From contig NZ_JAGHMF010000015.1 of NCBI RefSeq assembly GCF_017741815.1, forward strand, positions 124,001-188,000: DNA of 64,000 nucleotides, in the 5' to 3' direction. Positions 14,185-19,342 of the stretch are shown here, piece after piece. This stretch comes from Rhizobium sp. 16-488-2b (GTDB lineage: Bacteria > Pseudomonadota > Alphaproteobacteria > Rhizobiales > Rhizobiaceae). Numbering within the stretch: the first letter of the stretch is position 1; every line of letters starts with the position of its first letter. A program made the translations under genes and the position numbers. The notes beneath the pieces were generated by a model. That model had not been told where the DNA came from. It saw nothing but the letters and a program-made list of their open reading frames with translations, and searched no databases.

Positions 14185-15477
14185 ATGGGCAAGAATATCG
14201 TCATTCTGTTCGATGGCACGTCGAACGAAATCTCCGCCGACCGCACCAATATTCTGAGGCTGTTCGGCGTTCTCGACCGCAGCGACAGGCAGATCGTCTA
14301 TTACGATCCCGGCGTCGGCACTTTCGGCGCCGCCAATGCATGGTCCAACGCCTACCGCAAGACGGTCGAACTCTGGGGCCTGGCAACCGGCTGGGGCCTC
14401 GATCAGAACGTCAAGGAGGCCTACCGCTTCCTCGTCGACAATTACGAGCCCGGCGAACCGGGGGACGATCAAGAGTATCGGGACCGCGACAACATCTACA
14501 TCTTCGGCTTCAGCCGCGGTGCCTATACGGCGCGGGTGCTGGCAGGCTTCGTCCACTCGCTCGGGCTGATGAGCAAGTACCACGTCAATCTCATCGACTA
14601 CGCCTACAACACCTACAAAGGCATCTCCGAAAGCGAGCAGCAGCAGGGCGGAGCGGATGCCGCCGATGTCGATTGGGACGCGCCCTCTGCCTTCAAGACC
14701 ATGCGCCTCTACGAGCGCACGCTGAAGACCGACCGCCCGCCGATCAAGCTGCTCGGTCTCTTCGACACCGTTTCCTCGGTCATTGTTTGGGGCAAATGGC
14801 GCCCGCAGCTCCTGACGCTTCCCTTCACCGATCGCAATCCGAGCGTGGAAGTAGTCCGCCACGCGCTCGCCATCGATGAGCGGCGGACCATGTTCAATCC
14901 GCTGCCATGGCGGCCGGGACAGGACTACTGGGGCGGCCCCTTCAAGCCGCCGGCCCCGCCCCCGCAGAATGTGAAGGAAGTCTGGTTCTCCGGTGTCCAC
15001 GGCGATATCGGTGGCGGCTATCCGGAAGCGGAGAGCGCCGCGATCAAGATACCGCTCGCCTGGATGATCGCCGAGACCCGAAGCACCGGCCTCACCTATA
15101 ACGAGGACGCGGTCAAGGAACTCGTCCATGGCGACAACCCGACGAAGAGCTATGTCCGGCCGGCCCCAACGGCACCGCTGCACGACTCCATGAACTGGGC
15201 ATGGAAGCTGCTCGAATATGTGCCGAGGCGTGTGCCGATCACCTCCTGGCGCAAGCGCGGCGACACGACGCGCATCTACCTGCCGCTGGCCGACCGTCGA
15301 TTCATCCCCGACGGCGCCTCGCTGCACCAATCGGTGATCGACCGATTGTCATCGACGACAGCACCGCCCTACGCGCCGCCGAACCTGCCGCTGCGCTTCG
15401 AGATGGAGCCCTGGAGCAACGACAGCCCGCCACCGTCAGAAGATTCGGAGGTCGTTCCGATCACTCCGGCCGCTTGA
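14185..15477 (+). CDS. DUF2235 alpha/beta-hydrolase domain protein
   Basis: A 430-residue cytosolic protein with the DUF2235 domain. It starts at the first strand (KNIVILFDGTSNEISADRTNILRLF in outline) and contains the nucleophile elbow GFSRGAYTAR, a GxSxG motif. The family includes Tle1-type phospholipase effectors of type VI secretion, but no vgrG, immunity or secretion gene is nearby, so a stand-alone lipase or esterase is more likely. GAGGGG precedes the ATG. It overlaps the 3' end of the convergent VOC gene by 17 bases. Confidence 0.85.
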   Translation: MGKNIVILFDGTSNEISADRTNILRLFGVLDRSDRQIVYYDPGVGTFGAANAWSNAYRKTVELWGLATGWGLDQNVKEAYRFLVDNYEPGEPGDDQEYRDRDNIYIFGFSRGAYTARVLAGFVHSLGLMSKYHVNLIDYAYNTYKGISESEQQQGGADAADVDWDAPSAFKTMRLYERTLKTDRPPIKLLGLFDTVSSVIVWGKWRPQLLTLPFTDRNPSVEVVRHALAIDERRTMFNPLPWRPGQDYWGGPFKPPAPPPQNVKEVWFSGVHGDIGGGYPEAESAAIKIPLAWMIAETRSTGLTYNEDAVKELVHGDNPTKSYVRPAPTAPLHDSMNWAWKLLEYVPRRVPITSWRKRGDTTRIYLPLADRRFIPDGASLHQSVIDRLSSTTAPPYAPPNLPLRFEMEPWSNDSPPPSEDSEVVPITPAA

Positions 15478-15919: not shown

Positions 15920-17389
15920 TCATGCCGCCATGCCCGCCATCAGCTCCCGCACCCGCACCATATCCGCCCGAAACAGCGCCATCTCCTCCGCCTTCAACCG
16001 CTCGTCTGGAATGCGCAGCAGATAGGACGGGTGGACGGTGACGAATAGCGTCCGTTCCTTCCCCATCCTGATGGGCTGCCCCCTGATATCGGACAGCTTG
16101 TGTTTGGTATCCGTCAGCGCCGTAAGCGCGGTGGCGCCCATGGCGACGATCAGCTTCGGCTTGATAAGTTCGATCTCCAGATTGAGCCACCAGCGGCAAT
16201 GGGTGACCTCGCCCATATTCGGCCGCTGGTGGATGCGGCGCTTGCCGCGCGGCTCGTATTTGAAGTGCTTCACCGCATTGGTCACATAGACCGACTGCCG
16301 GTCGATCCCCGCCTCGCCGGCCACCTGGTCGAACACCTTGCCCGCAGGCCCGACGAACGGCCGGCCGGCGAGATCCTCCTGATCCCCCGGTTGCTCCCCG
16401 ACGAACATCACCTTCGCATCTTCAGGCCCCTCGCCGAACACCGTCTGCGTCGCCTTCTCATGCAGCGGACAGCGCGTGCAGACGGCCGCCTCCTCGCGCA
16501 GCGACGCCAGCGTGCCCACCGGCGCCCTTGGTGCTGCGGGCACGCGGCGTGCGGCTTCCTGCAACCGGTCGTGAAACGGCAGCGGCTCGCTCGCCTGGCG
16601 CTTGGCCATATCAAGAACCTTGCTTTCCGCGTCGGCGATCATGCCGGGAATGAGATCGGCCTCTGGCAGGTTCTTCCAGTATTTCTTCGGCATCTCCGCC
16701 TGCATCGCCTTCACCTTCAGGCGCGCCGGATTGAAGATATTGGCATAGTACGTCCGCCACAGCTGGTCGGCCGGATCGGTGAGATCGGGCTTCTCGCACG
16801 GATCGTGGCTGACGGTCAGTTTCTCGCCATCCCAGGCAGCCGAGCCCTTGGGCGTCGCGATCACCCAGTCCATGTCGTTGAACCGCTTCTGGAAGAACGG
16901 CGCCTTGCGGGCGACGATGTGATGATCCGGCTCGAACCAGGCGAGAAACTTCCGCCGCCCGTTGAGCGAAATCCCCGAGCCCACCTCCTTGAACCGCACG
17001 AAGGCCGTCATCTTGTGGGCGTCGCGGCGCACGCTTTTGTCCATGGCCCGCGCCCGCGCCACGTCCTCGTCCGAGGCGACATCGAGCAACGACCGATCGC
17101 TTTGCAGCCGCCAAAGCAGCCGGTAGAGGAGATAGAAGCGCATCGGAGCGCTATGGCAGATCACGGCTTCCGCAAGCCCGATAAAGGCGGGCGGCACCGT
17201 CAGCGGCTTGGAGGCATCGAGCGTCGGCAGCTTCGGTAAGGTATCAGGCGCGGCAAACAGATCCGTCTCGCGATACCGCTCCCGCCACTCGATCTCCTCG
17301 GGCGCAACACCGGATGCCGCCAGCCGCCGTGCCGCGTCGCGCCACTCGGCCAATTCTCCCCGGCCCTCCAGCAACACGGTAATCATCAC
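15920..17389 (-). CDS. DUF4130-UdgX fusion (uracil-DNA glycosylase superfamily)
   Basis: A 489-residue fusion. Roughly residues 1-260 are a DUF4130 domain; the rest is a UdgX-type uracil-DNA glycosylase superfamily domain. This has an iron-sulfur-type Cys region (CTRCPLHEKA), the active-site loop GEQPGDQEDLAGRPFVGPAG and the UdgX-specific loop KRRIHQRP with H387. In characterised UdgX the equivalent His attacks the excised-uracil site and stays covalently bound to DNA. Its ATG overlaps the stop of the upstream radical SAM gene, so the two are translationally coupled. The DUF4130 role is unknown. Confidence 0.9.
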   Translation of the reverse strand: MMITVLLEGRGELAEWRDAARRLAASGVAPEEIEWRERYRETDLFAAPDTLPKLPTLDASKPLTVPPAFIGLAEAVICHSAPMRFYLLYRLLWRLQSDRSLLDVASDEDVARARAMDKSVRRDAHKMTAFVRFKEVGSGISLNGRRKFLAWFEPDHHIVARKAPFFQKRFNDMDWVIATPKGSAAWDGEKLTVSHDPCEKPDLTDPADQLWRTYYANIFNPARLKVKAMQAEMPKKYWKNLPEADLIPGMIADAESKVLDMAKRQASEPLPFHDRLQEAARRVPAAPRAPVGTLASLREEAAVCTRCPLHEKATQTVFGEGPEDAKVMFVGEQPGDQEDLAGRPFVGPAGKVFDQVAGEAGIDRQSVYVTNAVKHFKYEPRGKRRIHQRPNMGEVTHCRWWLNLEIELIKPKLIVAMGATALTALTDTKHKLSDIRGQPIRMGKERTLFVTVHPSYLLRIPDERLKAEEMALFRADMVRVRELMAGMAA

Positions 17390-18618
17390 AGCAACGACAA
17401 TTGTTCCGGCTTCGGCTCGAACATCGCCCTTAGATCCGGCCGGTCGATCAGCCGGCGCGGCGACCAGCCCTCGGCCGAGATGAACGCCTGCACCTTCTTG
17501 ATGGACACGCCGAGCCGCGTCAGGTCTTCGATCCGCAGCCGCCTGAAACGGCGCGCCGAGAGGATCGATTTCACCGTCTTCGTTCCCAACCCCGGCACCC
17601 GAAGCAGCGTCTCGCGCGGCGCCCTGTTGATATCAACCGGAAAATCGTTGCGGTTGCCAAGCGCCCAGGCAAGCTTCGGATCGAGATTGAGGTCGAGCAT
17701 CCCGCCCTCCTGCGAGGACGTGATCTCGTCGATGCCGAACCCATAGAAACGGTAGAGCCAGTCGGCCTGATAGAGCCGGTGCTCGCGCATCAGCGGCGGC
17801 TTGATCAGCGGCAGGTTCTTCGACGAGTCGGGAATGGGGCTGAAGGCCGAGTAGTAGACGCGCCGCAGCCCGTAGCTTCCGTAAAGCTGCGCGCTGGTCC
17901 CGAGAATGGTCGCGTCATTGGCGCCATCGGCCCCAACGATCATCTGCGTGCTCTGCCCACCAGGCACGAACCGCTTGCGCCGCTTGGTCTGCAGCGTCGG
18001 CTCGGAAGCCGCCTCGATCTTCAATCTCAAATCGCCCATCGAGCGGCGAATGCTGGCCGGCTTCTTCTCCGGCGCCAGTTGCGCGATGCCGCGATCGGTC
18101 GGCAGCTCGATATTGAGCGACAGACGATCGGCATAAAGCCCCGCCTCTTCGATCAGATGTGGCGAGGCCTCGGGAATGGATTTCAGATGAATGTAGCCTC
18201 GGAAATTATGCGTGGTGCGCAGCTCGCGCACGATCCGCACCATCTCCTCCATCGTGTGGTCGGAAGAGCGGATGATCCCTGAGGATAGGAACAGCCCCTC
18301 GATATAATTGCGCCGATAGAACTCCAGCGTCAGCCATATAACCTCCTCGGGCGTGAACCGCGCCCGCTCCACATTGCTGGACGAGCGGTTGATGCAATAG
18401 GCGCAGTCGTAGATGCAGAAGTTGGTGAGCAGGATCTTCAACAGCGAAATGCACCGCCCGTCCGGCGCATAGGCGTGGCAGATGCCCGCACCTTCAGTCG
18501 AACCAAGCCCGCCGCTCTTGCCGGAATCGCGCTTGGTGGTTCCGCTGGAGGCGCAGGAGGCGTCATATTTGGCCGCGTCCGAGAGGATGGCCAACCGCTC
18601 TTCGAGTGACTTCTTCAT
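17386..18618 (-). CDS. Putative DNA modification/repair radical SAM protein
   Basis: A 410-residue radical SAM protein of the type genomically linked to UdgX. It has a CxxxCxxC iron-sulfur motif (CIYDCAYC) and, at the C-terminus, a helix-hairpin-helix DNA-binding motif (LLRVPGLGTKTVKSILSAR). It presumably acts on DNA, but substrate and product are unknown. I chose ATG 18618 (MKKSLEERLAIL) because homologous sequence begins there. Upstream in-frame starts (18642, 18645) would add a short tail encoded by the LexA-type box. The downstream UdgX gene overlaps by 4 bases. Confidence 0.88.
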   Translation of the reverse strand: MKKSLEERLAILSDAAKYDASCASSGTTKRDSGKSGGLGSTEGAGICHAYAPDGRCISLLKILLTNFCIYDCAYCINRSSSNVERARFTPEEVIWLTLEFYRRNYIEGLFLSSGIIRSSDHTMEEMVRIVRELRTTHNFRGYIHLKSIPEASPHLIEEAGLYADRLSLNIELPTDRGIAQLAPEKKPASIRRSMGDLRLKIEAASEPTLQTKRRKRFVPGGQSTQMIVGADGANDATILGTSAQLYGSYGLRRVYYSAFSPIPDSSKNLPLIKPPLMREHRLYQADWLYRFYGFGIDEITSSQEGGMLDLNLDPKLAWALGNRNDFPVDINRAPRETLLRVPGLGTKTVKSILSARRFRRLRIEDLTRLGVSIKKVQAFISAEGWSPRRLIDRPDLRAMFEPKPEQLSLL

Positions 18619-18624
18619 ACCAGT

Positions 18625-18639
18625 GTTCACTATATGTTC
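18625..18639 (-). promoter_or_regulatory. LexA (SOS) box of the radical SAM-udgX operon
   Basis: On the coding strand the sequence is GAAC-ATATAGT-GAAC, an exact match to the alphaproteobacterial LexA direct repeat GAAC-N7-GAAC. It ends 7 bases before the ATG at 18618. TTGACT at 18649-18654 (minus strand) and TATAGT inside the box, 15 bases apart, could form the promoter, giving a nearly leaderless mRNA with LexA on the -10 element. Confidence 0.7.
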
Positions 18640-18753
18640 CATCACTAACAGTCAAGAAAAGCCGCCATGGATCGATGTTTTTCAAGTTTGACGCGAAAAG
18701 CCATGAGGGGTTGCAAGTCGCTTCATCGAATTCTCTGGAAATCGACGGAGGCA

Positions 18754-18865: not shown

Positions 18866-19342
18866 ATGGTTGATAAGGTACCGATGACGCAGGGTGGTTT
18901 CGTCAAGCTGCAGGAAGAGCTGCGCTGGCGTCAGCAGGAAGAACGCCCGCGAATCATCGAGGCGATTGCCGAGGCCCGCGCACACGGCGACCTCTCGGAA
19001 AACGCCGAGTACCACGCCGCCAAGGAAGCGCAGAGCCACAACGAAGGCCGCATCGGCGAGCTCGAGGATCTGACGGCGCGCGCCGAAGTCATCGACCTCT
19101 CCAAGATGTCCGGCAGCACGATCAAGTTCGGCGCCAAGGTGAAGCTCGTCGATGAGGACACCGAGGAAGAAAAGACCTACCAGATCGTCGGCGACCAGGA
19201 AGCCGACGTGAAGGCCGGCCGCATCTCCATCTCCTCCCCGATCGCCCGTGCGCTGATCGGCAAGGAAGTCGGCGATTCCATCGAGGTCAACGCGCCCGGT
19301 GGCTCCAAGGCTTACGAAGTTCTGGCCATCACCTGGGGCTGA
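18866..19342 (+). CDS. greA: Transcription elongation factor GreA
   Basis: A 158-residue factor that enters the RNA polymerase secondary channel and stimulates cleavage of backtracked RNA. An N-terminal coiled coil with the acidic tip ([19 protein letters not shown]) is followed by the C-terminal FKBP-like domain ([18 protein letters not shown]). AAGGA precedes the ATG. A terminator-like hairpin in the leader suggests attenuation. The lpsB gene follows after 5 bases, so the two are probably cotranscribed. Confidence 0.97.

Follow-up and report, generated by a model that had tools for sequence, protein, structure and literature searches.

The window analysed here (a 64,000-nucleotide stretch of Rhizobium sp. 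16-488-2b DNA) contains, on its minus strand, a two-gene operon coding for a radical SAM protein and a fusion of a TIGR03915 domain to the uracil-DNA glycosylase family member UdgX. A predicted LexA operator, interleaved with putative promoter elements, lies immediately before the first gene, and greA runs divergently from it. The features are as follows, in window coordinates:

15920–17389, minus strand: TIGR03915 (DUF4130)–UdgX (TIGR03914) fusion gene, assigned by family models and by the motifs GEQPG, KRRIH and HPSYLLR
17386–18618, minus strand: radical SAM protein gene (TIGR03916) with a C-terminal helix-hairpin-helix, assigned by family model and structure model
18625–18639, minus strand: predicted LexA (SOS) operator GAACATATAGTGAAC, a GAAC-N7-GAAC repeat conserved in relatives
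18629–18634, minus strand (read 18634–18629): putative −10 element TATAGT inside the operator, of the form TA-NNN-T and found at the same place in relatives
18650–18655, minus strand (read 18655–18650): putative −35 element TTGACT, with TTGAC at this position common among relatives
18866–19342, plus strand: greA, the divergent neighbour and not the owner of the box, by family match and locus comparison

The first gene matches TIGR03916, 'putative DNA modification/repair radical SAM protein', with 571.6 bits (cut-off 343.5), and carries the CxxxCxxC radical SAM cluster motif as CIYDCAYC; a motif of the type TN.C...DC.YC.NR is found in 104/105 alphaproteobacterial loci. The best named protein matches come from Rhizobium, with the radical SAM protein of Rhizobium sp. 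16-449-1b being 100% identical. The two genes are joined by a start/stop overlap, the GTG (17389) and ATG (17386) of the fusion gene overlapping the radical SAM stop codon (17386–17389). The second gene product is matched by TIGR03915 (214.7 bits, above cut-off) and by the UdgX model TIGR03914 (343.1 bits, cut-off 189.95), and its UdgX part aligns with the solved UdgX structure 6ajo across residues 292–467 (E 6e-46, 160 bits). Under the definitions of motif A, R-loop and motif B in the available text of PMC10359453, all three are present: GEQPG (as GEQPGD), KRRIH with its histidine, and HPS..LR. Beyond the operon end, on the opposite strand, we note a gene for a Tle1-like T6SS phospholipase domain protein (14185–15477, plus strand; PF09994, 261.9 bits).

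Modelling the radical SAM protein gave a mean pLDDT of 72. Among the 50 Foldseek matches listed are general radical SAM enzymes (MgmA, MiaB and HydE) and Tex, with query-length TM-scores of 0.40 or below; none of these 50 indicates a specific function. The TIGR03915 (DUF4130) domain (16643–17386, minus strand) was modelled with a pLDDT of 87 and has no Foldseek match below E 0.001. A second structural comparison of this domain returned mostly RecJ/Cdc45/pyrophosphatase-type chains, which we take to be DHH-type; their Z-scores of 4–7.9 perhaps reflect a common arrangement only, and we treat the likeness as a lead.

Positions 18639–18625, read on the coding (minus) strand, form a direct repeat GAAC-N7-GAAC that exactly matches the alphaproteobacterial LexA box (GTTC-N7-GTTC/GAAC-N7-GAAC in the accessible portions of PMC8565304 and PMC9578287). 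The letters thus agree with the initial annotation, which had identified an exact box overlapping TATAGT, with TTGACT 15 bases upstream; its distance of seven bases from the ATG is corrected to six, the hexanucleotide ACTGGT separating GAACATATAGTGAAC from the ATG at 18618–18616. Operator, −10 element and start codon are thereby packed within about 20 bases. The 15-base spacer between TTGACT and TATAGT is short for a sigma-70 promoter, which counts against a promoter at this position, and a consensus promoter scan that admits spacers of 16–18 bases found none in the region.

Taken within this one genome, the bare GAAC-N7-GAAC pattern is weak evidence. It occurs at three sites in the window against 1.93 expected, a number reached by 31/100 shuffles, and at 175 sites genome-wide against 149 for the reversed pattern. 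An A+T-rich class, GAACAHWWDNNGAAC, stands further from its control (15 sites genome-wide against three for the reversed pattern), in a comparison where the class was defined after viewing the genome site list and includes the site under study. Its members include sites before lexA, uvrA/ssb, dinB, uvrD and imuA; of these, the matches to imuA (47 bits) and, at part length, to uvrA and uvrD score below their cut-offs. The same genome encodes LexA (TIGR00498, 181 bits) with a box of this type in front of the gene, and the first 12 bases of GAACATATAGTGAAC recur in that lexA promoter (L060); recA has one-mismatch boxes only. A matrix built from five SOS promoters, too thin a training set, ranks the operon box 15th of the 104 sites scored (out of 175). 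It is conservation in relatives, set out below, that is decisive in making the box significant.

Two further sets of boxes in the genome deserve mention. One box, GAACATATAGGGAAC (L058:1501–1515; own genome C4:113353–113367), lies 33 bases before a gene for a DarG-like macrodomain protein (183.7 bits, below the cut-off of 250); the next ORF is one that we would call, by eye from its sequence, DarT-like, and the two are possibly an SOS-controlled toxin–antitoxin pair. Near A+T-rich boxes at two other places (L035:1612–2238 and L064:782–1414) are ORFs with similar starts, one having a weak TnsA-like match (31.6 bits, cut-off 110) and the other none.

We followed the box through three sets of genomes or loci, which overlap and contain many close relatives, so that their counts are non-independent and are not to be summed. 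A search of 61 genomes, including that of the strain itself, yielded 25 with a TIGR03916 gene above the family cut-off. Every one (25/25, two from other families of the order) has the exact box directly upstream of the gene; no close relative in this search that keeps the operon has lost it, with 24/24 other genomes retaining the box. We took the best 80 named loci, all alphaproteobacterial, out of at least 587; protein identity among them falls as low as 68%. In 78 the exact box lies no more than 60 bases from where the match begins, and the remaining two (L098 and L099) carry GAACAAAACGTGAAT, one base off. The background in these 80 loci is five exact sites in 629,911 bases outside the upstream stretch, and the reversed pattern occurs ten times across the whole loci. 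A phylum-wide draw of 398 Pseudomonadota genomes gave 84 above cut-off, 55 alphaproteobacterial and 29 others; the exact box, on either strand and no more than 200 bases upstream, is present in 55/55 of the former (own genome included). Genome G030 also has the remnant of a second radical SAM gene start (C14:243107–243205, L026), which retains the LexA box, and UdgX fragments lie nearby.

Outside the class the operon carries another motif. CTGT-N8-ACAG is the LexA motif of Gammaproteobacteria and most Betaproteobacteria, and upstream of the operon in the 29 non-alphaproteobacterial genomes it is exact in 19 and has one mismatch in five, all of genus code g134. One-mismatch matches are weak evidence, GAAC-N7-GAAC itself being found with one mismatch in 4/28 non-alphaproteobacterial loci. 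The other five operons (L150, L182, L194, L201 and L205) have neither motif. L201 contains GAACGAACGTAC, which to us resembles a betaproteobacterial LexA motif, and in L150 GAAC-N7-GAAC, CTGT-N8-ACAG and GAAC-N4-GTTC are all absent with one mismatch allowed. L182, L194 and L205, from one non-alphaproteobacterial genus, share a conserved palindrome at the box position (TCTCATCCAATGAGA, TCTCAT-N3-ATGAGA); with one exact place per genome, it is ruled out as a general LexA motif of that genus. The E. coli and Pseudomonas LexA boxes, as given in the accessible part of PMC9578287, agree with CTGT-N8-ACAG. A different predicted LexA motif on the same operon outside the class is stronger evidence for LexA control than the conservation of any one motif. 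The SOS control that had been proposed from the window alone is strongly supported by comparative sequence (25/25, 78/80, 55/55 and the motif switch), and we regard control of the operon by LexA as very highly probable.

The 78 named alphaproteobacterial loci that have the box exactly show how it is placed relative to the start codon. Counted to the first start codon in frame, the gap that follows the box is 2 bases in 30 loci, 6 in 20, 4 in ten, 5 in eight, 3 in four and 7 in two, with gaps of 0, 14, 28 and 29 at one locus each; it is thus seven bases or fewer in 75/78, and the start is ATG in 77/78. Elsewhere in the genome of the strain itself the distance to the listed ORF start is greater, at 48 bases for the lexA and uvrD boxes and 19 bases for the dinB box, against six bases for the operon box. 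The N7 core matches TA-NNN-T in 56/78 loci and T-W-NNN-T in 62/78. With the A of the ATG as +1, the place for a −35 element is 35 bases upstream; an exact TTGAC lies 15–60 bases before the start in 41/78 loci, at 35–38 bases in 38 of those 41, and is absent from that interval in the other 37. SD-like 4-mers precede the start in 4/78. Covariation of gap and spacer was matched in 0/10,000 permutations over 38 pairs (those with TTGAC 33–40 bases from the ATG only), a figure that ignores kinship and carries little weight. The layout is common, not universal, among alphaproteobacterial loci, and in one locus group (for example, L169–L171 and L207) the box sits about 103 bases upstream on the opposite strand; certain further loci also depart from it. 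Judged from the spacing, the mRNA probably starts leaderless or nearly so; the almost leaderless transcript predicted in the initial annotation has strong comparative support in the short gap, the TTGAC spacing and the scarcity of SD-like 4-mers.

Several other accounts of these letters can be weighed against an operator laid over a promoter. Were the box a chance match, or did it serve greA or another neighbour, it would be one of 175 genome sites that hardly exceed the control of 149; the comparative data nonetheless refute this for practical purposes, and we give it next to no credence. The box moves with the operon, because a greA match was found in just 48/106 loci (flanks of 1.5–3.5 kb, some shorter), the box being kept where greA is not nearby, and because the 400 bases before greA contain a box in 0/14 genomes of the same genus that lack the operon. 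The remnant gene start in G030 still has its box too. It is also improbable that the conserved sequence is a core promoter (−35/−10) only, with GAAC repeats that are incidental or belong to another regulator. Such a promoter would account for the good −10 that the box overlaps and for a TTGAC-to-ATG spacing conserved wherever TTGAC occurs, but not for GAAC words flanking the −10 that are exact in 78/80 loci, for boxes that do not overlap the −10 in this way, being on the opposite strand or at a greater distance upstream (for example, L206, L216 and L169–L171), or for the other LexA motif found in its place, exactly or one base off, in 24/29 non-alphaproteobacterial operons. The choice of start codon matters here as well. 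Two other possible in-frame starts, GTG (18645) and ATG (18642), come shortly before the box, and the longest ORF, opening at 18645, spans it; translation from either codon would place the box within the coding region and the promoter farther upstream. We judge this unlikely, at much the same level as a bare core promoter. Because the TIGR03916 match begins at residue 5 of the shorter protein, past the lower ATG, because an ATG abuts the box in only 3/25 loci (L006, L011 and the strain's own L013, among L001–L025), and because the lower ATG is conserved across the relatives' loci, the radical SAM gene probably begins at 18618.

A separate matter is which part of the operon the operator belongs to. 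We surveyed the UdgX domain in 105 alphaproteobacterial loci (L001–L025 and L070–L149; L071 ends at the contig end). In 91 the fused domain can be read, and each of these has both GEQPG and the R-loop histidine, which argues that UdgX is under selection within the unit. In 13 loci, from Azospirillaceae and a neighbour, Acetobacter, Asticcacaulis and a Yoonia-like group, the second gene stops after TIGR03915 and there is no second UdgX match in the flank examined; these keep the box, exact in 11 and with one mismatch in two. On the radical SAM tree the UdgX label changes at least three times. Of 22 stand-alone UdgX genes above cut-off in the genus we examined 20: all have an intact R-loop histidine, and in none (0/20) do the 100 bases preceding the UdgX domain contain a box. 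Against these figures stands an exact, G+C-rich GAAC-N7-GAAC 161–200 bases before the domain in three of the 20 (L241, L244 and L248). In L244 and L248 the repeat coincides in part with the ATGAAC at which a divergent ORF begins, roughly 70 bases ahead of the UdgX ORF, and L246, a related locus, has lost one base of the repeat; we take this repeat for chance, another kind of control being possible. In L238 and L239 a GAAC-N7-GAAC falls inside the coding region. Since the box stays where UdgX is missing and the stand-alone UdgX genes examined go without one at their start, the SOS switch appears to go with the radical SAM–TIGR03915 pair. We lean towards the pair as the SOS-controlled unit, with UdgX an optional fusion partner that comes under LexA through its neighbours. 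This is compatible with a LexA operator over the operon promoter and alters only its meaning: SOS control would say little about UdgX in general. The initial annotation's claim that the locus gives UdgX a physiological setting therefore holds where the domain is fused and not beyond, given a box that tracks the pair.

Our main reading, to which we assign a probability of roughly 0.87, is that a LexA operator is laid over the −10 element of the leaderless, or nearly leaderless, promoter of the radical SAM–TIGR03915–UdgX operon. In undamaged cells LexA on GAAC-N7-GAAC would cover the −10 and the transcription start, excluding RNA polymerase. Upon DNA damage, RecA would trigger LexA self-cleavage, and transcription would begin at the ATG or within a few bases of it. 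Translation of the first gene would proceed without a Shine–Dalgarno leader and that of the second through the start/stop overlap. As to the products, their families suggest that a [4Fe-4S] radical SAM enzyme with a DNA-binding helix-hairpin-helix would act with the TIGR03915 domain on DNA damage. UdgX, again by family, would remove uracil, bond to the abasic site via the R-loop histidine and protect that site until RecA-dependent repair; we put the odds of such a capture role for this product at about even. A wider picture is more speculative and, taken whole, rather unlikely: the pair may be an SOS-induced DNA-repair system across Alphaproteobacteria, expressed from a LexA-covered leaderless promoter, with UdgX an optional covalent-capture module, TIGR03915 perhaps a RecJ/DHH-like DNA-binding domain minus the nuclease site, and the radical SAM enzyme perhaps acting on or resolving the captured abasic site or another SOS-associated lesion.

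The initial annotation offered SOS control as a prediction; at the operon level it is already in print. COG4277, we presume, is the TIGR03916 radical SAM gene. The accessible text of Sanchez-Osuna et al. 2021 (PMC8565304) places a two-gene COG1573–COG4277 operon, labelled 'UDG base excision repair', under Bacteroidetes SOS motifs and, citing Erill 2016 and da Rocha 2008, credits earlier work with reporting SOS regulation of this uracil-DNA glycosylase system in both Alphaproteobacteria and Verrucomicrobia. Other SOS networks are said in a 2020 paper to include 'a radical SAM protein', with no further detail; a Caulobacter repair survey has four COG1573 UDG genes in its list and no gene for a radical SAM protein. 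Uracil, glycosylase and radical SAM are absent from the main text of the Caulobacter SOS papers, the review and the Dinoroseobacter paper examined. For UdgX, the mutational study PMC10359453 describes the physiological role as largely unknown; the protein is proposed there to shield abasic sites, the adducts being resolved by RecA-dependent pathways or proteases; its main text contains neither 'SOS' nor 'operon'. SOS control of the fusion would fit this abasic-site protection idea. A literature search covering few subscription papers found none joining UdgX with LexA or with radical SAM, and no test of abasic-site protection by an SOS-controlled UdgX.

SOS membership of the operon being published, the tight promoter layout and a box that follows the pair and not UdgX may be new. 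What is added here is that layout, the class-wide count, the motif switch within one sample and the setting apart of the SOS-controlled pair from UdgX. Joining UdgX with the SOS-operon literature makes its cellular role testable, and the promoter offers a clear case of LexA operator, −10 element and start codon in close packing.

Two known systems bear comparison. The UdgX structures 6ajo and 6ail, presumably of the Mycobacterium smegmatis protein, share with the UdgX part described here the GEQPG motif A, the KRRIH R-loop histidine and the HPS motif B; their chains consist of the UDG domain only, whereas here UdgX follows TIGR03915 in a fusion and shares its operon with a radical SAM gene. 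The closest likeness at the level of regulation is to the SOS-regulated COG4277–COG1573 operon (PMC8565304), with the same two-gene make-up and a LexA-type operator. That account, in its accessible text, differs from ours in using no UdgX name, in describing no leaderless geometry and in treating together the TIGR03915 and UdgX parts that are separated here.
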